Positions 9,932 to 43,500 of a stretch of DNA of 64,000 nucleotides are shown here, one piece after another (within the stretch, counting starts at the first letter, position 1; each line of letters opens with the position of its first letter). The stretch covers positions 1,488,001-1,552,000 of the forward strand of contig JADILM010000005.1 of NCBI GenBank assembly GCA_016617785.1, in the 5' to 3' direction. Position numbers and translations under genes: made by a program. The notes under the pieces were generated by a model. The model was not told where the DNA came from and made no database searches. It worked only from the letters and a program-made list of their open reading frames with translations. Source of the DNA: Sporobolomyces roseus. Its lineage: Eukaryota; Basidiomycota; Microbotryomycetes; Sporidiobolales; Sporidiobolaceae.

Positions 9932-10003
9932 GGGTCGTTGGTGAAGTGGTTATCATGCGAGCCTTCCAAGCTCGCGGGACGGGTTCGATTCCCGTACGAC
10001 TCA
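9932..10003 (+). tRNA. tRNA-Gly (anticodon UCC), intronless
   Basis: The sequence folds as a cloverleaf. The acceptor stem GGGTCGT pairs with ACGACTC (one G-U). The D-arm contains AGTGGTTA. The anticodon stem CGAGC/GCTCG carries the loop CTTCCAA, giving anticodon TCC. The T-arm is ACGGG-TTCGATT-CCCGT, and A10003 is the discriminator base. GGTTCGATTCC is a good B box and the D-arm serves as the A box. A T4 run at 10006-10009 and a longer T run soon after fit RNA polymerase III termination. Confidence 0.93.
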
Positions 10004-15729: not shown

Positions 15730-16552
15730 CTACTGGGTCAATCCAGTTTTCGCCGATAATCGACTAACAGGATACAATGCTGCCGCCACCCGCCTTCCCT
15801 CTTCACTCAGTAAGTTGTACGTCGAAGCTGCGTTCCTCTATCCGATACAGAAAGAACGAGAACGTGATTAGCGAGTAAAGAAGATTCGAGGGAGAGAAAA
15901 GGAGACGCACGGAATCCAACACGTCTACTTGAATACCGAGCGAGTTGAGGTACTTCTTAAACTTTGGTGGAGGGAACAAACCAGTTGGACCAGTACCGAC
16001 CAACAAGATTTCTATCGCACAGAAATCAAAAACGAAATCAGTACCTCGATCTCCCTCATGCTTACCCCCCTTCTCCCTCAGCTCGACCGTACATGAACAA
16101 GATAGTTACGACTCACCAGGTCTAGGATTAATGACCTCAAACACTTTTAACTTTTCCTCATCGAACCCATTCCAACTTCCACCTTTCGAATCCTCCTTCG
16201 GTTCTTCTACATCCCACATGAACGCAACTCCTTCAATCATCAATATAGGACTTGGCAACACTAATCCATCTGATAGTGTATAGCCTGCTGAGGGGGTCAG
16301 GGAGGTGATTTGGAGAGAAGGATTCGAGGAGGGGAGAATAATGTTTGGTAGTCTATGCGAGAGGGGGTCAGTGATGGGCTGTGAGAGAGAATAAGGAGAA
16401 GCGTACGAGTCTCCTACTGCTAGGGATGGGCGAGAGGTGGAAAGTAGGCGGAGAGAGGAAGTTGAGGGAAGGAGAGTTGGAGATCGGATTGATCCGGTTG
16501 ATCTAGAGGTCGCTTGAGCGAGTGTTCGTAGTGTTTGAGTAGATCGAAGCAT
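15730..16552 (-). CDS. Mitochondrial complex I assembly factor NDUFAF3-like (Mth938 domain)
   Basis: The N-terminus MLRSTQTLRTLAQATSRSTG is a basic, hydroxylated mitochondrial presequence. The body shows ITSLTPSAGYTLSDGLVLP, LMIEGVAFMWDV and KVFEVINPRP. After an intron it continues EILLVGTGPTGLFPPPK and SLGIQVDVLDS, and after a second intron NAASTYNLLSEEGRRVAAAL. These are the ordered landmarks of the NDUFAF3/Mth938 fold. Human NDUFAF3 helps assemble NADH:ubiquinone oxidoreductase. About 205 residues, complete, ending SRLSAKTGLTQ. Its presence implies the organism has a canonical complex I. Confidence 0.9.
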
Positions 16553-16755
16553 AGCTATTCGTAGTGTAGAGTACAGTGAAGACGCTTGCGATCAAGATAT
16601 TCGCTCAAGTTCAAGTTTAATTAATTCTGTGCTATTCAAAGCTAAGCCAAAGCCCCGCTGGAACAATGAAAACATACACGAACAATAATTCTATACAAAA
16701 AACTCTTCCTTCGACAGACGAATTAATACTCCCAAACTCTTCGCAACTAACTCTA

Positions 16756-18066
16756 CTGTCCGTCGCCAGCCATCCCTCCGCCTTTGGCCAGCGACCGAAC
16801 TCGCTTCATTGTATGCTTCATGCGAACACCATAGATACGGCCGGTGAGGTTTCTGAGAGTTGTAGCTATTTTTCGTAATACTTTCTTCCCTTCGATAGTT
16901 GAAGTGAGAGAAGGGATCGCTTCGTCAAAGGATGGCATGAGTCCAGTCTCATAATACAGGCTCGTAGAACGAGGCTAGATCGGGTCACCTCGCATCAAAC
17001 AGGGCATGCGATTCGCTAACACGATTTTCTCTTCTGCAGTCAAAGAACTCGATGAATCGTGTCGACCGCTCTCTGACGCCAAGTAGTGTGCTGCTGGCAA
17101 CGTACAAATATATGGGACTCATCCTCGACTTCAGAATCACAGAATACGCAGGTAGTAGGCTGCAGAGGGTCCGCCGCTCCGGTTGCTTTCTCTGAATGCC
17201 TTCTTTCGACGAGCTCCAGTGTCCAGCGCATGAGACCTCGCCAGTAGTTGTACTTGCATACCGTGTCCGTGCAGGGATCGTTTTACGGCGGATCAATCGA
17301 GCGGCATGTTTGCGAAGCCGAGAATTGATGGGTCAAAGCGCTCTTTTTCCTTCGGTTGAAGCTCAGAGAAACGAGCACGCGAGGACGCTTCGAGCAGCTG
17401 AGAGCGAGGGTCTCCCTCGATATATCCGTTAGTTCCGATACAAAGAACGAAGCGAGGCAGCGGGAAAATCGGGTCCAGCAGAACAGGAACACTTTGCAGG
17501 GAGTGAGCCGACTTTGCTAGAGAGTCGCATCGGTCATTGAGCCGCTCAGCAACAGTCACTGTTGCAGTGTGCGCCTTGACATGCCTGATCTCTACGTCAA
17601 AGTTCGCTGATGCAAGCATTCGAAGGATTATTCGACACCACGCCCACCAATGACCAGCACTTGTACTCTTCGCTACAGCACATTCATTCAGTATATTGAT
17701 TGAGGTGAGATGATCAGTGAAGATGGTACTGAGCTTGACAGCATTCTCGGCCCTCGAGCGATCAAGAAAAGCAGCAAAAAGTGCAAGGGAGAGAGTTGCG
17801 ACTTCAGCTTGCAAGCTTTTCGCTAGAGGATTTGCCAGCTTGAAACTGAGTTCTATATTTCCTGCCACTGCTCCCGTCGCTGAAGAGATACCGTTGATAG
17901 CACATGCTGAACCGTCGGACGCCCAAGTCGCTTGTTCTTCGAAAGGTCGATCGATTTTACGACTCGCTCGCTGACGATGGCTTCGAAGCGTGACGAAAAG
18001 AGACTCTACTGCTCGACGCGAGAGTATGAGAATTGTACCTCTGAAACCCGACGCAGGGTCATTTCA
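16756..18066 (-). mobile_element. Decayed LINE-type retrotransposon fragment (RNase H and RT zinc-binding region)
   Basis: Reading from 18066 toward 16756, the first frame (to 17293) carries an RNase H-like domain. ATWASDGSACAING is the first strand with an acidic residue, LQAEVATLSLALFAAFLDR the Glu helix, STIFTDHLTSINIL the Asp strand, and RHVKAHTATVTVAERLNDR with CDSLAKSA the His/Asp end. After stops and frame changes near 17290, another frame shows TCVFCDSEVEDESHIFVRC, the C-x2-C..H..C knuckle usual after reverse transcriptase in LINE pol proteins. A third stretch (16938-16756) resembles the pol C-terminus (TTLRNLTGRIYGVRMKHTMK). The RT domain and 5' end are absent. The copy is truncated and frameshifted, hence dead. 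Confidence 0.7.
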
Positions 18067-18483
18067 GCTGCCCCGATCAAAGCTGCTGAGTGATGAACGG
18101 GTAATAAAATATTACAACAATGTAGTATACACAATTTCGTCCGACTGTCATCCTACCCAACGAACCCTCTTCATTGTTCCTCTCATCCTTTCCCCATATA
18201 TCCTTGCCGCTGAATTCTCAAGAATCGATGAAAGACGACGTACGTTCTTTTTTCCCCCCTCGACGAAATGCGGATGAGAGAGAGAGAAGGCTTGACGAGC
18301 GGCATGAGACGCGCAACGGACTGTTTCGAGCTGGCAAGGACGGTAACGAAATCATCGATCATCAGCGGATCAATTCCATAAATCGAAATTGGAAAAACTC
18401 CTCCTCCTCCCTCCTCTCGCTGCCTACGGCCCAAGACTGTCTCCTGCGGCCTTATAGGAAGCCAACGACTTTTGAGCGGCCCT

Positions 18484-18771
18484 GTCTATCGCAGCATACC
18501 TCCCTCCGAAACAGCATCTCGAACTTTCCCCGACCCTCGAAAGTTGCGCCCTCTCCTCGTCTCCGAGTCCTCATAGTTGTTCCCAACCTCCCTCCACTGA
18601 AAATGTACCATTCTCAGAACGCCTGATCCCGATAGACCACCTCAACGCCCTCGACTTTTACGTCGCCAAGATGATGATTGAGCGTGTAAGTCGCCGTTTC
18701 AGTTCCCAATCTCTGCGGAAGCAGTGTTGTAACCACACAACTGATGATGTTCTTAGCCAATGGTTAGGTAA
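18484..18771 (+). other. Possible terminal exons of an unrecognised gene or gene fragment
   Basis: One frame reads through to RLIPIDHLNALDFYVAKMMI and ER at 18684. It then meets a consensus GTAAGT intron (18685-18756, with CTGAT branch site and TTAG acceptor) that splices to PMVR and stop (TAA 18769-18771). The splice signals are good, but the upstream frame has no start and no recognisable family. It may be the 3' part of a gene damaged by the neighbouring retroelement, or chance. Confidence 0.25.
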
Positions 18772-19439
18772 TACTGTGTGTCGACTTAGAATGTAGCGAC
18801 TTTGGATTGTTCGCAAACACCTCTTTCAGAAATTGATGATACGATACGCCAGAGTACGAGACGCTGCTCTAGATTTGTCGGAGAGCATGAGTGACTAGTC
18901 CAACGCATACTGTCAGCTTGTGCGAGGTCGGAAAGGGATAGTGGAGAAGAGGGGAAGGAGAGGAAGTGAGGGAGGAGGTGGGTTCGCTTCACGCTCGAGT
19001 TGAAGGCTTGTTGTCGCTCTGGAATACATTCTTGATCTATAGTATCTATCTGCGTGGTGTAACGTTGATTTGAGGATTGTTGACGAGGACAAGAGGTTCG
19101 ACTTCACTTTTCTCTCTCCCTTCCTCCCTTCACCAATTCACTCCGCTCTGCTCTGACAACAGCACCGCAAAACAAGCACTTCAGAAGCATCTACAACCTG
19201 ATCAGAAACAATAGCACCTCTTCCCTTTCTCCCTTTCCTTTCCTCCCTCCCTCTTCGACTCATTCCATTTCTTCACATTCATCCTCGAACCACAGAACCT
19301 CTAGTCAAAGACCTATATCCCAGTTCACTTTACCTTCTTTTCTGCAGATCAATCCTCAGATTTCTCTCCCTCTCTTTCGCCAACACCTTCCTTCTTTCAC
19401 GTCGACCTCTCCTACTCCCTCGATTGGTTCTATTAGGCA
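18772..19439. other. Intergenic, pyrimidine-rich leader of the Fanzor-like gene
   Basis: No supported gene. From about 19110 to 19439 the plus strand is markedly C/T-rich (runs of ctttcc and cctccc), like other plus-strand promoters and leaders in the window. No inverted repeats marking a transposon end were obvious by eye. Confidence 0.5.
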
Positions 19440-22400
19440 ATGGGGATATCACAGGCATGGAAAGTGGCTACAGAGATTAATGAGGAGCTGCAAAGAAGGA
19501 AACAGGAGCTGGAAGAGCCACAATTGAGTCTCAAGAAGAAGGGGAAGGGAAAAGGAAAGGAGAAACTTACCGATTCGTCACAAACCAAGGAAATGGACGT
19601 TCAGGATAGAGCGAGTCTTATTATGTTCAATGTTGGAGATATGAGTCAAGCTTTCGATTGTATCGTCAGGCGCATCCAACAAGAATACCAAACCAATTCA
19701 CCAATCCGTCAGTTCCTCAAGGTTTTCTCATCTATATCTCAGCGTCAGCTCACACGCTCTCTCTGATCATGCAGACTTCATTCTCTATCTCGACGTCAAC
19801 TCGATTGGCTTCTTACAATTCGACAAGGCGAGAGAATTGATCCGAAAAGATCGCAATTTGAACTCCGAGAATCGCAAAATAGCCACCAAACGACTGCAAC
19901 ATTGGATTACTCGTAGCTTCTGCGACGAGTATGGAGCGATCGTACCCGCCGGGTCTCAACTTGAGCTTCATGCGGATCATCACGACCGACGAGGGAAAGA
20001 CAAGATGGTGGAGCTGGAGCATCGATACCTCAAAGACGCGGAAGAATTCGCCAAATCTGTCGTTGATGAACTGCTGGGATCGCAAGCTGTAGACAAGCAA
20101 CAGAAGAGGAGGACGGTGAAAAGGAGGAGAAGGAAAGAATGGAATGAAATGGGAACGGAGCAGTCTAGTCAAGGAGCTCAAGATGAGGGAATGGAGGATG
20201 GAGGAGTGGGAGATGATGAGAAGTTGGTCGACAAATTGGAAGGATCTCGTGAACAAATCGAATCGATCGCTGGTGAGCCATCTTTTGTCTTTTCGGCTCT
20301 TCCTCCTTTCCCTGTATCTCTCGCGTCCCGTTCCCAGTCGATCCTCGCGCTTCTTCGGCACTCCTCTCTGCGTCCATCGACTGACTTCGTTATCTCGATT
20401 CACAGGTCGACTCGTGGATGAGCGATTTGCCGAGACAGGTCCACTTCGTTTACCAACTATCGAAGATGTATGTCTCGTTGTTTCTCATCGATGGCAGCTG
20501 TGTGAGTCGTGACTGACGGTATAGCTAGTACTATCTCACTCAACAGGCGAATGACAACGATCGAGTTATCTCTTTACTCTACCAAGACATTCGATCAAAA
20601 GCTACTCTCGTCACCGCTCATCGAGAAGCCGACGACTCGATTCTCGCACGTGCTCAGAAGCCTAGCCGTACCGACGACCGCCGCATCCACGTGGTCCTTC
20701 CTCAACTTCCTTCAGCCGTTCCTCCCGTTCCTCCCGTTTCCCCCCCTTCTTTTTCCTCTTCCTCCCCCCCGATTTCCGTCAAAGTGCTCGTCACTGGAGA
20801 TTCGGACCCAATCTTTCAACATGACTCTCGCAACGTCCGATTCGTCGTCTCGCCGTACAAATGCCTGAAGAAAGATGCAGTTCGAGCGTTGGATCTCCTC
20901 GGACTTCACGAAGTCAGCCGCGATCTATGGCCCTTCGACGACGTTCAAGCCACGCGTGGAGCGATGATCATGGTCAGCAAGGAGCGAGGGGAGAAGGTGG
21001 CCGGATTGGGATTGAGGAAATTGATCAAGAAGCGAGGATTGACGGATTTCCTAAACGACCTCGAGCAAGTACGGAGCTCAATCAAGGGTTTCGAAGACGG
21101 CGTCAAAGCCGTATGGAATCTCGACTCGCTACCTTCGCAATACCAGGGGCCGAAAAGCCTCCAGAAAGTTGTCGATGAACTCTATCGTTTGGAACTCAAA
21201 GTCGAACCTCCTTGGAAGGTCAAGGAATTCCTCGAGGTCATCGACTCATTGCGAAAAGGAGTGAAGAAGGACAAGCACCTGGTCTTGAAGTCGGAGGTGA
21301 TCAAGAGGATGACAGTCGAAGCAGTCGCCGTTGCTATCGAAGAGGTCAAGCTCAAGCTTTCTCTCGGGATCGATGGTCAACCTTCTCGGAAACACCAACG
21401 AGCCTGTCGTCGAAGAAGCTCGTCAGTGCCTCTCGATGGCTATCGCAGATCGGACAAGACCGACGCTCGAGTCGCAGACGAGCTCGATCTCCTTCTCGCT
21501 TCAGAGTGGGAATCTTCCCGACCTTCGACTCCAGAACCTCAACATCTCTCTCCCATTCTCTCCAAAGCTTCACCTCCCCATGCAAACCCGACTACCCCCG
21601 ATGATCAAAGCACCGAAAACGCTGTCATCCCTCCTTCGAATTCGACCTCTCTCGCTTCTCGATCTCCTCCCTCTCGACTTTCGCAATACCGAGTCCGAAG
21701 GTACCAAGAATCATTTGTTCTCTCCGACAACATCGAGCAAGATATTGCCAAACAACAACAACTTGATCAAGAAACTGGAGTCGTCGCGCCTCTTCCCGCC
21801 GAATCAGAGAAGAAACCGTTCTCGGTCAAGCAGAAGTGGCATCAAGCTGAGGTCTCGTCATCGAAAAAGAAACGAATCTCGAACAAGAGGCCAGACGTCG
21901 TCGATGGCGTCGGAGTCAAGCTCGTCGGTTTCAGTCCTCGTTGCATCTCGAAGATTCCGATGACCCATCTCGCTTTCAACGATCTACTCTTCAATCGTAC
22001 GTTCCTCTCTACCCTCCACATCTTTCCACAGCCGAGACTGATCGCTCTTCTGACTGCAGGGAACGTCTTCGTCGATTCAACAGATCCGTCCGATATCGTC
22101 GCCGATTTCGACCTCGACGAGCTCGCTCCAGGTTGGTCAGAGTCAGCGCTTTGGGTCTACCGAACAATCTTCGATGTAGGTCGAGACGCCAGCTTCGAAA
22201 TGGGACAACGGTTGGAGGAGGTTATGAGAGCGACCATCACCTTCGAACCTGGTTTCCTCCACGCCTTCACCGAATCAACGAGTGGCGCCGTTCACCTTTG
22301 TGGTGCTATCTCCTCTGTACTCAAATCACTCGACGTCAATACGAAGATCACTACACCAACTCGACCAGCGACCGCGCAAGAAATCGACGCTTTCTTCGTC

Positions 22401-25400
22401 ACCTACGATACCAAGGGAAAGGTCGAACGCACGACTTACTCGAACGCTATCGAACGAGAATTGGCAAAGCAGGCGCTCAAGAATTGCTTGGTTTCGAACG
22501 ACCAGTTGAATCGATTTCTTGTTGTTTGCAAACACAACTCAATGGTGAGCTTCTTTTACTACCGTGTCTCCCTCTCATTCGAGCATTCGACTCATGTTTG
22601 TACCCGCTCTTCAGGCCTGCATCGGAATGCTCCTCGACGCGATCCACGTCAAGAATGCTACCGACGTCTTCGCTCCCGTCGTCGATCATCACCCCTTCTT
22701 CGAGCTCAACATGACTGCAGCGGGTGTCAACGCCGTCGTCAACAGTCGCAAATTCGCCTCGACTTGGTCCTCGGCGACTGCGAAACTCCTTCTGTCTGAA
22801 TCTCTCCAGCTTCCCACACGATTTTCCCTCTTTCCCTTCGCCTACAATGCCGATCCCGCCGAACTACCCTCTTCGCCTCTGTCACTCACTGCAGCTTACG
22901 TACTCGGAAACATCTCGAAACACATCGACGATTCTGCCCCTCCCTACTCTTCTCTCCTTTCGAAGCTGGTCGACGCGATCAAATCGATTGACACTCTCCC
23001 CAATGCACCTCCTCCAGTTTTCGCCGAACTCTCGCAACAGCTCGTCGGCTGCTTTCATGGTTGCGACACTGTTCCGACCCGACTCCTCGACCTTCACTGG
23101 CAACCCAGCAACATCTCGGAGTTTGAGGACGGAAAGAAAGAAGCGATGGAGCGAATTGTCGAGTTACTCAGATTTATCGCTGGACTTGCCCAGAGAGGTA
23201 TCAAGGAAGGGATTGAACATGTTGAAGAGGTGGAGAAAGTGAACGAGAAGAAGAAGTCCTCAGGAGGACGAGTGAAGCGAAGTGGGCAACTCAAGACGAT
23301 CGCAACGATTGGGGAGTACGAGTCATTGACGGTCGAAGGAGTTGAATCGAAGATCGATAGTAGCGGGGATGACGGAATGGAGAATACGGTTCCAGGAGGG
23401 ATTGGAGCGAAAGAGTTCCGAGTTTTCTCTCATCGTTGGGATGCTCTGTTGGGTCGGAACACAGTGGTGAGTCTTCCGAAAATCCCGGCTGATTCAGCGC
23501 TCGGTACCAACTCTTTCTCTTTCGATCAGGCATTCGAGCCTCAATTTTGCAAGCTCAACTCCCAACTTGTCGCTTATCTCACTCGTACACCTATCTCAAG
23601 CGAAGGAGAAATCGTTCCTCCGATCGTCAAGCTCTTCGCTCAAACCATCTCCCGTCGAGCTCAAGCGATCGATCAGATGAATCTCATCAGTCTCTCCCCT
23701 GCTTCTCTCGATCACGACACGGAGATGGAGGAGAATCAGCCTTCAGATCAAAGGAACGCTGCCACCGTCACCAGAGCTAGGGAATCGGCCGATCGATTCA
23801 TGAGGCTCGCCAGGGGAGGGCAAGTTGCGAGTTTGAGAAAAGGGAAAGAGAACGAAATCGCTTCTCCTGTGGATTCGCTAAGGAGGGAAGCTATGGATGT
23901 CGACGGAGCTGGGATGGTTGAAGGAGGTGGGGCTGGTGGTATCGATCGAGGAGGAGGAGGAGGATCTTCAACTTCAACTTCAACTTCAACTTCAACACCT
24001 GCTCGCACTGCCGTCGATTCCGCCAATCCTCGTGCTCCACCCGCGAACTACTCGAATACAGTTCGACTGGCTGATCAAGATCGATGTCGTCCAGTTCTTA
24101 CCGGGAACGGCGTCCATTTCCTCGTCTTCGAAGAGCGATTTCATCAATACGAGAAAGGCAAACTTGGACCTGGAGAAGTATACAACTGTCGCCGCCTCAT
24201 TCCTGGGATTCACGACTCCGGGATCATCAAGTTCAAGAGGGTTCAGCAAGGTTCAATCGCTGAGATCGAGGTCGACGAGGAGTTACTCGCCGAGTTCGAA
24301 GCTGCTACGAATCGGGTTCAACGACTCTACACTGCTCCTTTCCCTATCAATTCTACCTTCACCGACCGCTATCTCCTTATTCCTCAGTCGGGTCACGATT
24401 TCATAGCCACAACTTTCACGACATCTTTCGGCTCACGAATCCCTTACGATCTCATCGTTCTCAAGGAAGGGGAACTTCAACTTTTCTACATTGATCCTCG
24501 TCGAGCGGAGTCGGATGGCATGAAACTGATGGAGAAGCATCACGGTGAGTTCCTCGCTCTGTTCCTCTCGAGTTGTCGAGGATGCAGACTGAGCAGAAAG
24601 TTTGCTCACTCTGTAGTTCCCCGGTCTCTTCCTTGGACAAATGCCTTCCCTCTCCTGCTCAGCAAGAAGAAGAAGAGGAAACCGAAGCAAAGGAAGAACT
24701 CGAAGGTAGGAGAGAATTCGAAAGGAACTCACGACGACGACGACTTCTTCCGAACCGCTACCGAACAGAAGAAGATCCCGGACCTTCATTACGCACTCGA
24801 AAAGACTCGCTGGTCTCAGATCGTCATTCGACGAACGATTAAACGTGACAGTTATAGTTGGAAGAGGCGGGAAGCGAGGGAGGAAGTTCTGAGTGAGGAG
24901 ATGGTTGTTCACAGAGGTATCGATGGGAGGGAGTTCGAGCTAGTCGATGCCGAACCTATCTTCGAGCTCGTTGGAAGGGAAGAGATTCAGTGGTTCAATC
25001 CGGATCGCTGGAAACGAGGTCGACGACAAGGACCAATACACTTCTACGACGCTGATCCTCTCCTACTCCTTCCTGCTGGTCCTCCTCTTTCCTCTCCTCC
25101 GACTTCAAGAGCTGTTCGAGCTGTCAAAGAGGCAGAGGGCGCCCTTGGAGGAACCCCAAGAGAATCGAAATCCCAACATTCCCTCATCTCGGTCGACCCT
25201 GGAGAGAAGTTCCTCGTTGCAGCTCACGTCTCGCAACCTGGGAGCCAACGATCTTCATTCATCTGTCTAGGGAAGGAGGGTCCTGCAGAGGAAAGGCGGA
25301 GAGCAGCGGCGATTAGGAGGGAACTCGGAAATCAAGGGTTGCAAGCTCAATTACTTGAAGATTTCACAGGTTCGTCTTCTCCTTGGCGACCAATCGAGGC

Positions 25401-26629
25401 TCTTCTTCGTCTAACTCGAAACTGATGAACTATTGTTGTTGCACAGGTTCAAAGAATGGTTCTTTCAGCAAAACGTTCTCTCGAATCTCGTCCCGAAACA
25501 ACCCTTCTTCGACGACTACCGCCGCCCCTCCTCTTCCTTTCATCTCGTCTCCTCATATCATCCCCATTCAACGCACGCCTTTCTTGAACTCGTTCGCGAC
25601 TCTCCTTCCTGCCCCCCTCATCCGCATTCTCCTCGCATCCCCCGACGTTCGACTGACTGCATTCAATCTTCAAAACTCTCGTCAGCAACAACGTCATCAT
25701 CAATCGCAAGCGGCATTAGCGATCACCAAGGCTGTTCCTCGAGTAAAGACAGTCAAAAATGGGAAACCAAAGTTTGTTAAGCAGACAGCAGCTTATGTTA
25801 TAGGAGCTGGAGATGGAAAGACGAAAGCGTGGGGAATGGGATTCGGGTCAGCTTTCGTCAAGTGGCTGTATTACGGTGCGAAGAGTCGAGGAGACTTCAG
25901 CAAGGTTTACTTATTGAAGGTTCCCGAGGCTTATACTTCACAGCTGTGTCCGAGATGTATCAAGCCGTGAGTTCAACATCTCACCTTACCACTTGATCCT
26001 TTCCTCCTCCCATCATTCGACTTTCACTCCTTGCGACTTCGACAACTTCTTTCTCTCGAGGGAGGTAATCGATGGTTCCTTTCTCTTCCCGTCGCTCATA
26101 TCCCTCGCATCCTCTCAACTTGACTTCCGCCACAAGAAGCCGTCGGAACACGCTTGACTGCGCGCTGACATCGTTCGACTTGGTTCTTAGGCTCATCTAC
26201 GCCGCTGAATTCGTTGGAAAGATCCTCAAACTCGACCTCCGCATTCTCGTCTGTCTCTGGTGCAAGATCCACTGGCATCGAGACAAAGTCGGAGCGATGA
26301 ATTTAGTCGCGAACCTCGCCAACTTCCTTCGTCTTCGCCGCAATGCTCGAGCACCACTCCTCAGTGTTCAACTCGGTCACGGCCCTCGATTCTCCGGCTC
26401 AAACCCAACAACCAAGCTCTCGATCGCTTACTACTCGATGCAAAGGAAGGAAGAAGGACGAGATGCAGATAAACTCGAATCTGAGCGATTCACAGAGTTG
26501 ATTGAGGGCATGGAGGAGGTTGAACAGGAGAAGAGAAGGGTTGTCAAGGATTTGAAGGATGCTGAAGTAGAGAATGGCGATGATGAGGATGGAGGGGAAC
26601 CGTCAACAGATTCAGAGGACGACGAGTGA
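19440..26629 (+). CDS. Giant FEN/XPG-like nuclease fused to a Fanzor/TnpB-type RuvC nuclease
   Basis: Ten exons (19440-19707, 19775-20272, 20406-20467, 20547-21996, 22060-22544, 22615-23466, 23530-24544, 24617-25369, 25447-25966, 26191-26629) total 6342 nt, a 2113-residue protein, with every junction in phase. N-terminal part: starts MGISQAWK, then YLDVNS (D96), HADHHDRRGK (D157, D160), HREADDS (E303, D305, D306) and LVTGDSDPIF (D361, D363). This is the acidic order of FEN/XPG-like PIN-fold nucleases. The middle (about 400-1700) is unrecognised with low-complexity linkers. C-terminal part: SLISVDPGEKFLVAAHV (RuvC-I, D1737), YVIGAGDGKTKAWG, KVPEAYTSQLCPRC (E1955, C1962, C1965), CLWC (1989, 1992) and HWHRDKVGAMNL (D1999). 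This is the RuvC and zinc-ribbon signature of TnpB and its eukaryotic relatives, Fanzors. Catalytic candidates are intact. The tail is acidic. Guide RNA dependence and host role are inference. Confidence 0.85.
23967..23996 (+). repeat. (TTCAAC)5 coding microsatellite
   Basis: Five hexanucleotide units encode a Ser-Thr repeat after a GGA run encoding poly-Gly, in a linker of the large nuclease gene. The unit is a multiple of three, so length changes keep the frame. Confidence 0.85.
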
Positions 26630-26934
26630 AGAGCAATTTTGCATTTCAGCTAGCAGTATTTATGTATCGTACAATGCACACGACAAGTTGTTCGATCTTT
26701 GAGAATACTCGAGCTTGTTTTGCGACGAGAGCTCTCATTGAATCTTCCCAGAATCTGGAATCAGGTTTAGCGATAGCTTTGATCGATGCAGTTTCGGGTG
26801 AACATTGTGTAAATTGCGAATGCGGAACATCTGTCGAAAAGAGGGAGAGGAGAGGAGATACGAGCTATGATCGTAAAAATAGAGACGAGAAGCGGCTACA
26901 GACAAAAAAAAATGGTTCGAGAGGCTGATCGGAT
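26630..26934. other. 3' flank of the Fanzor-like gene
   Basis: About 300 bp between two convergent genes. No gene seen. In TnpB and Fanzor loci the guide RNA often overlaps or follows the 3' end of the nuclease gene, so this and the last exon are the place to look for one. Confidence 0.4.
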
Positions 26935-27382
26935 TTAGCGGTTCCAACTAGGTTGAGGAGGCGCACAATACATTGACGTCAAGCTGTTGTAGCTCCATTT
27001 GGTCGGAGGCGACCAAGAAGATTGGGTAGGGAGCGAAGGAAGCGAAGGAAGCGAAGGAAGCGAGTCGATTGGAAGAGCGTCCTTCATTTGTTTCGAATTG
27101 GACGTTGAACTTTGACTCTTCTTGGCTCCTCCCTGCTTTGCAGCAGACTTCTTAGCGGCTTTCGAGCGCTTGGACTGTGATAGAAGGAAGAGAGGCTCAA
27201 AAGAGGTTTCGAGGGAAAGTCTTTGTCAGAAAGTATGAGGGAAAACGTACTTGAGGTTCTGCTTTCAACTCGGTATCTTCTTCCTCCTCTCCAGATGCAA
27301 GAGCTGCCTTCCAGATGCCAGAAGCTGCGGTAGCAGCGGCACGCTTTGGTCGATAAGGCGTAGAATTTGAGTCGCTTTGCAT
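26935..27382 (-). CDS. Small basic hypothetical protein
   Basis: Two exons. Exon 1 encodes MQSDSNSTPYRPKRAAATAA, then GEEEEDTELKAEPQ. A GTACGT intron with a CACAG acceptor leads to SKRSKAAKKSAAKQGGAKK, a Lys/Ala-rich stretch that could act as a nuclear localisation signal. A three-copy SLP repeat follows and the end reads MYCAPPQPSWNR. About 125 residues, no known domain. Convergent with the large nuclease gene. Nuclear location is inference from composition only. Confidence 0.6.
27033..27059. repeat. 9-bp tandem repeat, 3 copies (gcgaaggaa)
   Basis: Coding repeat giving Ser-Leu-Pro units in the small basic protein on the minus strand. Confidence 0.8.
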
Positions 27383-28856
27383 CGGGTCGGAGGGCTTGAG
27401 GGCTTGAGGGAGGGAGGGAGAAAAAACGATATTCGATAGATTGTAAGAGATCTCTCTAGCGGGAGAATACTGGAGATTCGACTAAACAAGGTGAGGCGGG
27501 TGTTGAGTGAAGGAAGGAGGAAACGAGGAAAACTGACATTCCTTGAGTAGCGAAAGAGCAGCTAGCTCGATTGACCTGTTGCGTAGATGGAGCTGGTAGG
27601 TATAGCTCCAGTCGAAGGTCGAGAGGTGAAACGAGGGAGTGCAAGAGGAGAGGGCAGTTGAAATTGTTCAAAAAATTCGCGACGAGCTGTGGAAATGACG
27701 GGAGTAGGCTAGGCAGTTTCGGACGCTTAATCCCTTTCCAGGATATCTCGGCGTATGCTGAGCCTTGATCGAAAGAACCCGAAACGAGTAGTAGCAGGAA
27801 AGGAGAGAGAAACTCGAAACCCCAAAATCGAGTCTCCTGCTCTCGAATGCGAACGAGGTAACCATTCTTAAGATATTTGAAACGGTAGCCTACACACAAG
27901 TTTGACTTTATAACAGAAACACGTGAAACGAGTGTTTTGAAAGTCGAAAAGAGTTGCGATTCGTTTGTCTTCGCACTTTCCGAAAGCCGATTTGCTTCTC
28001 TTCTTCCTTCCCATCACTTTTTCAATTTCTTTCCCTTTTTCTTCACTTCAAGAGTCGTGAGTAGCTTCCTCAACTCGCTCACACTCTCCAAAGTGGTCCT
28101 GATATCATTTGTTGACTCCATTAGGAGTTTCCGACTTTATCTTCACTCCTCTCTCTCTCTCTCTCTCCTCTCTCTTTCCCCTCTCTCTCCCCCTCGACTC
28201 TCCCCGTCTTCGAGGATGGTGAATATTTGAGGACAAGTGATGACAATCGAATGGGGGAAAGCGAGTTAGGTCCGTTGCCACTCTCTCTCTCTCTCTGATC
28301 TTCCTCCTCGAAAGAGGATCACTGACTGCTTTCGCCTCGATGTTCATAGGAGTTGCCCTTCGGGGAGGTGCCTAACCCCGAGTACCTCTATCTGTATCGA
28401 TTGTTGAGAATGCTTGTGAGTTTTGACTTCTCTTTCGTTCGCATCGCAAACTAATCTTCGCGTTTCAAAAGTTGCTTCTCTTTACGTCACGAATCTTCAA
28501 ACATTCATCTCCTTCAAGACAGGTTCCATCCCCCCTCTCTACCTCCCTTTCGTTTCCCATTAATCTTCTTCTCTTTTACTTTTCATTTCACCCACTCTTG
28601 TCGCTCGTTTCTCTTTTCCCTTCTACTTTACCTCTTCGGAGGAACCACCCTCGTTTTAGTTTGGGTTCTTTTTCGACTAGCCAGTCACGAACAATTACCA
28701 CTTAGAACAGTAGTTTTGTTACTTTTCGCTTTTGGTATCGTGGCTCGTGTAATCGGGACAATTGAACATTACTATCCGCCCACTTTTCGGCTCGCTTCGT
28801 TGACCGGCTAAGTTGACTTTCTCTCCTCACTCACCCATCCACCTCGCGAAAGAAAG
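27383..28856. other. Long divergent intergenic region
   Basis: About 1.5 kb separating divergent genes. The plus-strand half (28000-28700) is strongly pyrimidine-rich with CT microsatellites. A 147-codon minus-strand frame at 27456-27899 lacks any motif and is probably not coding. Confidence 0.5.
28150..28167. repeat. (CT)n microsatellite
   Basis: Pure CT dinucleotide run inside a longer pyrimidine tract; a second (CT)8 run lies at 28281-28296. Confidence 0.8.
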
Positions 28857-29710
28857 ATGGCATCTCAAGAACGAATCAACACAGTCATCAGGAACCGATT
28901 ACAACGAACTCTAGATTCGTTGAGTACGGCCGGGTTCTCAAGAGCAATCGCTAAACGAATCGTTTTGGACCAAGTGAGCGTCTCGGGAGTCGTCATGGAC
29001 GGAGAGGAAGATACTGTAAGCTACTGCTTCATTCCCATGCTTCTTCGAGCTATTTCGAAGAGGGAAACTTTCGACGGAACTCTCGTTTTATCAAGCGAAC
29101 CCACCATTCTCGCACTCAAGCCTCTCCCCGTTCCTCCTACAGCCCTGACTGACATCGTCTCATTCATTCTCCCCGATAGAAACCGACGAAATCCGCTCAA
29201 TCAACCGTTTCCTGCCTAATCCCGGTCTCTCAAGACATGTGTAACGTCGCAGGCAATCTCCATGGTGGATGCGGAGCCTGGCTAGTCGATCACTGTTCTT
29301 CACTCGCACTATTGGCTTTATCAGGAGGGGACGAGGGAGAGCAGAGATGGACGACCAGCGGAGTAAGCACGAATTTGAACTTGAATTACATGAAAGCTGC
29401 TCCTGTAAGCCCCTTTTCTCTTAGCCCAATACGTGAGCTGGCTGATACGAGGGTTGTTTGGATTTAGTTGGGAACGAATTTGAAGCTTGTGACTCAAGTG
29501 TTGAACTTTGGAAGAGTAACGAGTTTACTGGAAACTAAGATTTATAATGCGTGAGTTTCCCTTCCCCTGTTGAGACTCGGGAAGATGAAACACTGACATA
29601 GAATGGAGGATAGGGATACAAATCAATTGTTGACGGTTGGGTGGCATACGAAACAAGATCAGTACAGGCCTCCTGTAACGAAATCGAAAAGGGGGAAATC
29701 GAAATTATAA
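28857..29710 (+). CDS. Hotdog-fold thioesterase (PaaI/ACOT13 type)
   Basis: Exon 1 encodes MASQERINTVIRNRLQRTL. A 164-nt intron (29016-29179) leads to SAQSTVSCLIPVSQDMCNVA and the hallmark NLHGGCGAWLVDHCSSLALL. The HGG helix start and the following Asp are the usual active-site region. TTSGVSTNLNLNYMKAAP, LKLVTQVLNFGRVTSLLETK and TVGWHTKQDQ complete the fold over three short exons. About 180 residues, complete. ACOT13 relatives hydrolyse acyl-CoA; the exact substrate is not readable here. The N-terminal helix has no clear mitochondrial signature. Confidence 0.85.
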
Positions 29711-30489
29711 AGGCTGGATTGAACTTGAAGGAATACAGGTGGATGTTGTAGAGCTTTGTTCAGGATGGGATGTCATCGGCTTGTTTTGGTCGATAGCTCG
29801 TGGTCGTTAGAGAGAACAGAAGCGAGAAATCCTGAGGTTGAGCGAGATAGACGAGAGAACGATCGATGAATAGCAGGATCGATTCAGCCAGCGCTTTGCA
29901 ATAGTCTCATGAGCCTTTGAGCGTACGGAGCGCGAGTCGAGTGAGTGGTAAGAGGTCAAGAGGAGCGAGTTAGTATCTCTGCCTTAAACTTCTGATTCAA
30001 CATCAACAGATCGCTCATTCGCCTATTCCGAGATCTCGACAAGTAGCTAAATAGGTTAGTCAGCTAGGTCTCGTCTTCATATACAATGAGACGCGGGAGA
30101 AGGAGGACTTCATCAACAAAGCAACTTCAAACTATCGATTCTGAACACTACAAGCTGATGAGGGTGACAGGGACATCGGAGGAGGAGAAATGAGTGATCC
30201 GAGTGTACTTGGAGGATCTCAGTGGTCGAGCAATCGCGATGGAGAGGTCCAACTGAGGTGGAGGTGGAGAGGGAGTCAGCGGCTCAAGCACAGCAGAAGG
30301 GACTCAGCTGGAGCGCACGGAGGATCTTATCGTGAGGCTGAAGTGGTAGAGAATTCAAACACCTTCAAAGAGGTTTGTCTCATTGTCGAGCAAAGTTGCT
30401 GATCCCTTCGCTCTCCCTTCCTCTCCCTTTCCAGACGCCCAAACCGATTACCGACCCTATTCCAGACACAAAGAAGCTTCCACGACAAG
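29711..30489. other. Intergenic before NAA10
   Basis: About 780 bp with no supported gene; a short frame at 30190-30402 has no motif and probably lies in the NAA10 leader. Confidence 0.5.
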
Positions 30490-40521: not shown

Positions 40522-43500
40522 ATGAGCGGGTACTCAGCAGTTCATCACCCGAATTACCCATCTTCATCTGCTCCTGCTGCTGCTGCACCGCGATTGCATT
40601 CGGCCTCGTACTCGCCGACATCGACTACGGAATATCAACATCAGCATCAACGTCAGCCCACTGGTCCACCACCGAGATCTCACCCACTTCCGACGAACGA
40701 GGACAAGAGACGGAGAGATGAAGTGGAAAATGACGATGGATACGAGAACGGTTCATATTACGGAGGAGGAGATGATACTAAACCGAAGAAGAAACAGAAA
40801 GGAAGAGCTGTCCTCTCCTGTGGAGAGTGTAAACGAAGGAAGGTCAAATGCGAGTAAGCAAAACTCTTCGTTCTCTTACTCGCTTCTCGACCTCGGAAGC
40901 TGATTAGTATTAGTGTTGCTCTCACAGTCGCAAAATTCCTTGTGCGACATGTATTCAAAGAGGTAAACCAGATGCGTGCTCTTGGGACGACCCGTTGGCG
41001 AACCCTGAATCGCAACCATTCGCTCTCGCAACCGATTATCAAGACGTTCTCGCTCGACTGGATCGAATCGAACACTTCCTTGAAACTCTACCTTCAGATG
41101 TACGAACTCAAGCGATCAAAGCCGGTTCAGTCTCATCTACGAAGCAACTCGAACCTGCTACGCCCAAACCCAAACTCTCGAATGAAATGGACGAAGCGGC
41201 AGCCGATCTCGAGGCGTCAACCTTCCAACAGGTCGCAGCACCTTCTCCTGCGGGTCTCGATTTCCTCGCGTCCGCCATCGACATGGTTCCCTCTTCGCAT
41301 CGACCCTCCGCTCAGATCGACCAACACCCCGAACCTACCTCTTTCCTCACTTCGATCTTGGGTCACCCGATCCGCTTCGAAGGAGCAACGAAAGCCGTTT
41401 CGCACGGACTCGACCTCTGTTTCTCCCAATCTGAGATGATCGAGCAGAGGGACAGATCTCTCGAAAAGATCTATTCCCTCCTGCCAACTCCGGACGCAGC
41501 AAGTCGAATTATTGGAGCTTACTTCGAAGATGTCAGCTGGTTCTATACGATCCTGCATCCACCGGCGTTCTTGGCAGAGGTGGAGAAATTCGAGGAAATG
41601 TTGAAGATGGGGAGACAGAATGAGGTAGATCTCGCTTGGTTGGGAATCTTCTTCATCGTAAGTTCTGTCTCTTCGGTGGTCGAGATCGACGGGTCTTTCT
41701 CAGTTCCGCGCCAGAATGGTGAAACTCACGATTGTTTTCGTGTCCACAGGTTCTCGCACTTGGTCTCGACGGAGCTCAATCGATCGAAACTCCTCCTTTG
41801 CCATTCGCAACGAAACCTGAAACTACCGCAGCTTGGTATGCGGCTTCACTTCGACTCTTTCACCTTTCGAATTGGCCGAATCAACCTCAATTCCGACTTG
41901 TTCAGCTCGTCGCCCTCTACGGCCGTACGTCCTGTTCTTCTTACTCTATGAGCGACTCTGACAATGTTCCACCTTCATAGAGTACAATTTGACGAGTGGA
42001 GGAGGAACGGATATGGGAGGTTTTCTCACCTATCTCGCGATCGGCGTTCGAATTTCTCAGAAGTTGCGACTCCATCAACTCGGGACGGACCCGAAAACGA
42101 TGCCACCCGATGACCTCGCCTTTCCGAAAGGTACCAACAGCATGAAACGGCAAACAGCGATTCGAGTTTTTGGAATCATCACTTTCTTGGATGTCGTTAC
42201 CGCGAACAATCGAATGGGAGCTTACCTCGTCCACCCTTTACAAGTTACAACACCTCCTCCGGAGAATCTCAACTTTGATCAGCTATCTGCGACGGATTGG
42301 CGAACTGAACCTGCTCCGAGACAAGTTTGGACGGATTCTTCGCTCGAGCTGAACAAAGGTGGAGGGGGAAGATAGTAAGCTCTCAATTCACTCATGACTC
42401 GTCGCACAATGCTGATTGACTTCGCCCATCTTTGTAGCATGAGACTAGTCTTCGATCGACTCGTCACGAATGCGAAAGATTTCACCTACGACACCGTCCT
42501 CGAACTCGATAGAGAAATGCGTGTTCACGTCGCAACCTTCCCCGAATCGATGACTTCCGAGAACGTCCAGCAAGAGGAGAGGAATCCAAAGTTACGCAAA
42601 CAACGATTCATGTCGATGTCAGGCGCTTTCTCGAGGCTAGTTCGATTACATCGACCATTCTTGGTGACTGGCTTCACGAATCCGAGATATCGATTCTCGA
42701 CGGATGCTTGTCTCCAATCGGCGAGAAAGGTCATCAGTGCTCATTACGGAGGAAGGGATTTCCTCAAGAACCTTAGGATTGTGTAAGTCTCTCCTCGTAC
42801 CTTCACCGTTCTCGGATCTAGATCTAACTCCCCTATCTCTCTGACAGCCATTCTCATACACTGAGCGCAACAATCGTTATCTACTCTTACATCTTCCATC
42901 TCATCGATACCAACGCTCCCATTTCGGAAATCGCTCGAGAAAAGTGAGTTGGAATTCGATTTGATGAGGAGCTCTATACTGATCAGTCGGTGCCTTACTT
43001 CACAGGGATACTGCCGCTACTGCTTACGAAGTCTTCTCGACCACTCAAGTGACTTCTCCGATGTTGAACAAGGTCATCAAGCACGCTACCGCGATCATCT
43101 CGTAAGCTTCTCCTTCACAATAACACCACCTAGACCGCAAGCTGATAATCGCAAGCTGAGTTCAGTATGCTCGGCTCTGCTGTCGAGGAACGACAAGCGC
43201 AACGAGGTTATCGCAACAACAACGCTCCTCCTCCCGAAACCTTCGTTCAGGTTGGTTGCGACTTGATCAATACTCGTGAACGTGATTGTACTGACTGAGT
43301 CATTCCACCGACAGGTTCTTCGACGTATCGCTAAGCAACTCTCCCTCGCCCATTCACCTCCTTCAGAGTACAATGCCGGAACGAGTGATCAGCGGCCTCT
43401 CGCACCGGGACCTCTCTCAATCAGCACGACATCCTCCTTCTCCACATCTTCGTCTCGGACTACTTCCCACGAGCCCTCTTCAGCGATGACATCCGCTCCT

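Follow-up and report, generated by a model that had tools for sequence, protein, structure and literature searches.

A probable host-retained Fanzor1 relative with a very large N-terminal extension in Sporobolomyces roseus

In the parts of the cited papers used here, Fanzors are told from TnpB by a DPG motif at RuvC-I together with a glutamate located six residues before the CxxC motif (PMC10711439). Published Fanzors sit within transposons, and the longest ones mentioned are about 800 residues long (PMC10711439). Most Fanzor1 proteins have 600-700 residues (PMC11423790), and the biological roles of Fanzors remain unknown (PMC10432273). Here we describe a gene on a 64,000-nucleotide stretch of the Sporobolomyces roseus genome (contig JADILM010000005.1, positions 1,488,001 to 1,552,000), called the window below and used for all coordinates. 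It is probably a single host-resident fungal gene. Its very long product would be a Fanzor1 relative, immobile and retained by the host, that carries a large N-terminal extension. The predicted protein is about three times the usual Fanzor length.

The predicted C-terminus carries a Fanzor-type RuvC/zinc-ribbon site, not that of an ordinary TnpB. The coding region and the elements of this site are:

19440..26629, forward strand: whole coding region, ten exons, 6342 nucleotides, 2113 residues
24064..26413, forward strand: putative Fanzor core, about residues 1384-2042 (from TNB, NF040570, PHROG 506 and size)
25195..25203, forward strand: RuvC-I DPG motif with catalytic D1737 (motif position and pattern test)
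25926..25928, forward strand: repositioned RuvC-II glutamate E1955, six residues ahead of the first CxxC (as defined in the part used of PMC10711439)
25947..26263, forward strand: zinc ribbon C1962-x2-C1965 ... C1989-x2-C1992, interrupted by intron 9 at 25967-26190 (Pfam TNB across the splice)
26282..26284, forward strand: RuvC-III aspartate D1999 in HRDKVGAMN (motif position and pattern test)

The Pfam family Cas12f1-like_TNB (PF07282) scores 37.8 bits on spliced exons 9 and 10, above its cutoff of 26.3 (E = 2.1e-9), and covers profile positions 4-60 of 60. The two halves of this domain reach just 22.6 and 16.7 bits when left unspliced, which supports intron 9. The pattern D-X(125,275)-[TS][TS]-X-X-C4-X(5,50)-RD is present in the protein and in 0 of 3000 shuffles. 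It follows the D...C4...RD motif of Bao and Jurka (PMC3627910, in the part used), with C4 spacings of our own choice. A second pattern, DPG plus the repositioned glutamate, was written here from the description in the available part of PMC10711439; it is also present, again with 0 of 3000 shuffles. The RuvC and zinc-ribbon signature that the initial annotation had read in the last ~400 residues is well founded and far outside what chance would give. None of the probable catalytic residues (D1737, E1955 and D1999) or of the four zinc cysteines is lost. A transposase family, PHROG 506, is matched at 3.8e-7. In the PDB, the C-terminal piece matches nothing but Guillardia theta Fanzor1 (VPEAYTSQLCPRC/VPEHYTSQECPSC); this match is weak and not significant alone (E = 0.47). 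Its alignment takes in VPE-YTSQ-CP-C and the last RuvC motif.

Among described proteins, Fanzor1 (SpuFz1 and GtFz1) shares the DPG motif, the glutamate six residues before CxxC, the C4 zinc ribbon, the RD at RuvC-III and a core of ~650 residues. The S. roseus protein differs from it by ~1380 extra N-terminal residues; its gene has nine predicted introns and occurs once in the genome, and no transposon ends were found at it. An enlarged RuvC is shared with PpFz1, which carries a RuvC insertion (FRI) domain. Here 218 residues separate D1737 from E1955, and in SpuFz1 the distance from D383 to E541 is 158 residues (PMC11423790, in the part used). However, the addition in PpFz1 lies inside RuvC, whereas the large addition here is N-terminal, and the likeness is one of RuvC length.

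The regions upstream of the core are as follows:

19440..21398, forward strand: N-terminal block, about residues 1-560, holding LDVNS, HREADD, TGDSDP and GLG (motif positions; no FEN/XPG match)
20547..21996, forward strand: exon 4, the region with a known relative, P0001 (protein search, 20-residue window identity)
21921..23781, forward strand: middle block, about residues 735-1289, of ordered-looking composition and no family
23782..24063, forward strand: Gly/Ser-Thr-rich linker, about residues 1290-1383 (few ordering residues, a STSTSTSTST run)

The linker parts the upstream extension from the last 730 residues. The Fanzor part past it, up to about residue 2042, has ~650 residues. This is the usual Fanzor1 size, and the ~1380 N-terminal residues would therefore be an addition. 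A 536-residue piece of the middle block gave no Pfam match at E<=10. Matches to Vfa1 (E = 2.7), DUF7718 (0.05), an MreB-like family (0.14), a phage ADP-ribosyltransferase PHROG family (0.048) and, in P0001, Exo70_N (0.022) were set aside as below cutoff or meaningless. Two basic clusters, KRRRRK (205) and KKKKRK (1560), may serve in nuclear localisation.

The gene is real in the sense that it forms one long continuous predicted reading frame. The exons, joined by GT-AG introns, and the predicted introns are:

19440-19707, 19775-20272, 20406-20467, 20547-21996 and 22060-22544, forward strand: exons 1-5
22615-23466, 23530-24544, 24617-25369, 25447-25966 and 26191-26629, forward strand: exons 6-10
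19708-19774, 20273-20405, 20468-20546, 21997-22059 and 22545-22614, forward strand: introns 1-5
23467-23529, 24545-24616, 25370-25446 and 25967-26190, forward strand: introns 6-9

Rebuilding from the sequence returns the ten exons, standard splice sites and 6342 stop-free nucleotides reported initially. The spliced 2113-residue model has a single, terminal stop codon and none inside. The introns were chosen from an enumeration of frame-keeping GT-AG pairs, and several of them have alternative frame-keeping pairs. For intron 3, acceptor 20528, which gives 2119 residues, was dropped for acceptor 20546. The latter is favoured because the near-unbroken similarity to P0001 begins at QAND and its CAG codon is the acceptor; the P0001 alignment thus agrees with the 2113 residues given initially rather than 2119. 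Residues are numbered on the 2113-residue model; part of the analyses ran on the 2119-residue model, in which numbers are higher by 6 after residue 276. The motifs quoted in the initial annotation were found at LDVNS 95, HADHH 155, HREADD 301 and TGDSDP 359, and at DPGEK 1737, CLWC 1989 and RDKVG 1998 in the C-terminal part, where PEAYTS 1954 and CPRC 1962 also occur.

When each exon is scored for codon bias against the remaining nine, the predicted frame ranks top in 9 of 10 exons. Exon 3, with its 62 nucleotides, is undecided (0.112 vs 0.129). An in-frame TAG lies two codons upstream of the ATG. Introns 6 and 7 (23467-23529 and 24545-24616) have lengths divisible by three and are stop-free. 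The frame is thus open whether they are spliced or not, and a single open reading frame, 22549-25425, spans both. Forms retaining introns 6 and 7 would still be translated.

P0001 was found with exon 4 as query among 5.8 billion proteins. It is a 511-residue protein on an 8323-base metagenomic contig and is 71% identical over 493 aligned positions. Its reading frame is open through the equivalent of exon 4. Against the whole genome, P0001 matches window positions 20523-22010 only, from 24 nucleotides before to 14 nucleotides after exon 4. This confinement fits introns at both ends of the exon in both lineages, at the protein level. Full-length and C-terminal queries of the 5.8 billion proteins returned no relative at E <= 0.001, among candidates of 0.55-1.75 times 2119 residues and, in one search, the best 7977 word-sharing candidates. 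Two scans of viral contigs also gave no relative.

The gene is single copy. Protein searches of its own genome (22.4 Mb, 15 contigs) return this locus only, and so do DNA searches using two queries, the 5' flank (17000-19440) and the segment 25900-28600. Two weak TNB matches elsewhere in the genome (L017 and L018) were considered as extra Fanzor copies and rejected, as they looked like chance in three frames. Between 16000 and 30000 there are nine pairs of inverted repeats, 16-31 nucleotides long and 77-94% complementary. Pairs I7 and I8 span the whole gene; they are 17 nucleotides long, do not lie at the gene ends and were judged chance. Terminal repeats closely bracketing the gene were not found in 16000-30000. 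Neither terminal repeats nor multiple copies, the marks of a transposon that carries a Fanzor, were found here.

In the proposed mechanism, residues ~1384-2042 would fold as a Fanzor core of normal size and bind a guide RNA. The core would cut DNA in the nucleus through D1737, E1955 and D1999. The 1380-residue extension, on its flexible linker, would be a lineage-specific scaffold or a targeting (recruitment) module. The mobile element would have been lost and the protein put to host use; invading elements are one example of DNA that it might cut or mark.

Several observations weigh against this reading. NF040570 matches the C-terminal part at 24.9 bits, under its cutoff of 100; it is a model of prokaryotic TnpB on which no Fanzor1 was scored, and a low score on it cannot tell a Fanzor1 from a non-Fanzor protein. 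Pfam, NCBIfam and PHROG scans gave no family match for WED or REC domains; a space of ~350 residues is available for them before RuvC. For a guide (omega) RNA, there is no Rfam match near the gene, and a fold scan of 19 windows of 140 nucleotides over 25900-27119 found no strong fold (lowest z-score -2.03). The sole relative appears to cover exon 4 only, and linkage of P0001 to a Fanzor part is not implied. The locus may not consist purely of host genes. Its nearest upstream frame, 17294-18063 on the reverse strand, matches RNase H at 19.4 bits, under the cutoff of 25.8. One genomic relative of this frame, 45% identical, lies within a 645-residue frame, and the frame may be the remnant of a retroelement, perhaps a long interspersed element. 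Host retention, finally, is deduced from one genome and one protein relative.

The first alternative concerns the N-terminus. Initially the first ~400 residues were taken for a FEN/XPG-like nuclease. The protein would then couple an RNA-guided cutter with a PIN-fold flap (or structure-specific) nuclease that trims the cut ends. We regard this as doubtful. The motifs LDVNS, EADD, GDSD and GLG do occur, and this order is that of FEN nucleases. The protein also begins with MGIS, comparable to MGISGLL of the host EXO1-like gene, and P0001 shares EADD and GDSD unchanged. However, the FEN/XPG half is not supported by any of the sequence tests run. Pfam scans of the first 604 residues, of shorter pieces and of P0001 yield no XPG domain at E<=10, and PDB, PHROG and NCBIfam scans of the N-terminus return nothing FEN-like. 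An hhalign comparison with nine FEN-family rows, run without a positive control, gives 0.33% probability, and 12 of 60 shuffles score as high. With P0001 added it is 10 of 60 shuffles, and against a larger FEN set 21 of 60. A 52-row FEN profile (49 archaeal rows and three others), with filters off, scores -4.5 bits, a value reached by 310 of 500 shuffles; the divergent host FEN paralog L004, which is outside the profile, scores 48.1 bits on it. Whole-genome scans for XPG_I (E <= 0.001), XPG_N and XPG_I_2 (both E <= 10) give 7, 10 and 3 matches, none of them here, and they do recover other host XPG genes. These scans ignore introns; the proposed XPG_I motifs sit within one exon.

The order of the acidic motifs does not clearly exceed chance. 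The pattern E[AG][DE] ... [AST]x[DE]xD arises in 85 of 5000 sequences when residues 1-560 are shuffled (1.7%) and in 139 of 2000 when the whole protein is. The pattern is also insensitive, being present in 14 of 52 FEN-family rows, and it occurs in 2 other open reading frames among the 188 of the window. In the 20-residue windows that hold EADD and GDSD, identity to P0001 is 80% and 75%; with an overall value of 71%, neither is exceptional. P0001 lacks GLG and has GEKVTGL--RTLIKK at the would-be FEN helix-hairpin site. A hand alignment on FEN1 would place N64 at D34, the first FEN aspartate, and a glutamate at D233, which counts against a FEN nuclease. AlphaFold2 on window positions 20529-21401 (the first part of exon 4) with P0001 gave a poor model, with a predicted local distance difference test score of 36, and the model was discarded. 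Human FEN1, used as a query on the genome contigs to obtain control rows, matched nothing. A Toprim reading of E ... DxD was weighed by eye alone and dropped. Compared with the FEN1/XPG/EXO1/GEN1 superfamily, the N-terminal block is alike in the order of a few acidic motifs and differs in lacking significant sequence or profile similarity and in a GLG that is not kept in P0001. The two-nuclease fusion proposed at the outset keeps its single long frame and its Fanzor half, and gains no support for its FEN/XPG half. A host-domesticated Fanzor with a highly diverged PIN/FEN-type N-terminal nuclease, making an RNA-guided break and processing the ends in one polypeptide, is unlikely.

In the open-access literature, with most subscription papers outside the scope, no Fanzor fused to a FEN/XPG nuclease appears among the matches listed, judged by title or start of abstract. 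Within the same literature there is no co-mention of Fanzor with Basidiomycota, nor of TnpB with XPG and fusion protein; Fanzor and FEN1 do co-occur in one paper. Two host loci were seen in the XPG scans. L004 (G000 C7:1458855-1462118) is the host FEN/XPG paralog and has an apparent very long insertion between XPG_N and XPG_I. L081 (G000 C9:304899-305249) has an XPG_I_2 match of 33.8 bits and is presumably of Asteroid type.

It is quite unlikely that gene prediction has merged two adjacent genes, a fungal protein (exons 1 to ~7) and a Fanzor1 gene (exons 7 or 8 to 10). The linker at 1290-1383 does divide two blocks, and the downstream one has a normal Fanzor1 size (PMC11423790, in the part used), but one open frame crosses the linker and both blocks within exon 7 and also introns 6 and 7, nor is there a stop codon that would close an upstream gene. 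A decaying transposon-borne Fanzor, open by chance and of no present function, would fit the single copy, the lack of recognisable termini and the possible retroelement remnant adjoining the gene, but is very improbable given 2113 open codons with consistent codon bias, intact catalytic residues and a 71% identical relative, P0001, that is also open through exon 4.

Seven frames of the window were scanned for neighbouring genes. Those for eIF3 zeta and an F-box protein pass the Pfam cutoffs; both are host genes and lie at least 15 kb away. The guanine-plus-cytosine content of the gene is within the range of the window. The frame at 40914 resembles a Zn2Cys6 factor by eye and matched no Pfam family. 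This frame, the small introns and the genome size were read as signs of a fungal genome. At the gathering threshold, Rfam recognises a single feature in the window, a tRNA-Gly (TCC) at 9932-10003.

With its single copy, many introns, intact site and huge extension, this S. roseus relative of the Fanzors would be a concrete candidate for a host-retained Fanzor. It illustrates how large the architecture around a Fanzor active site can grow.

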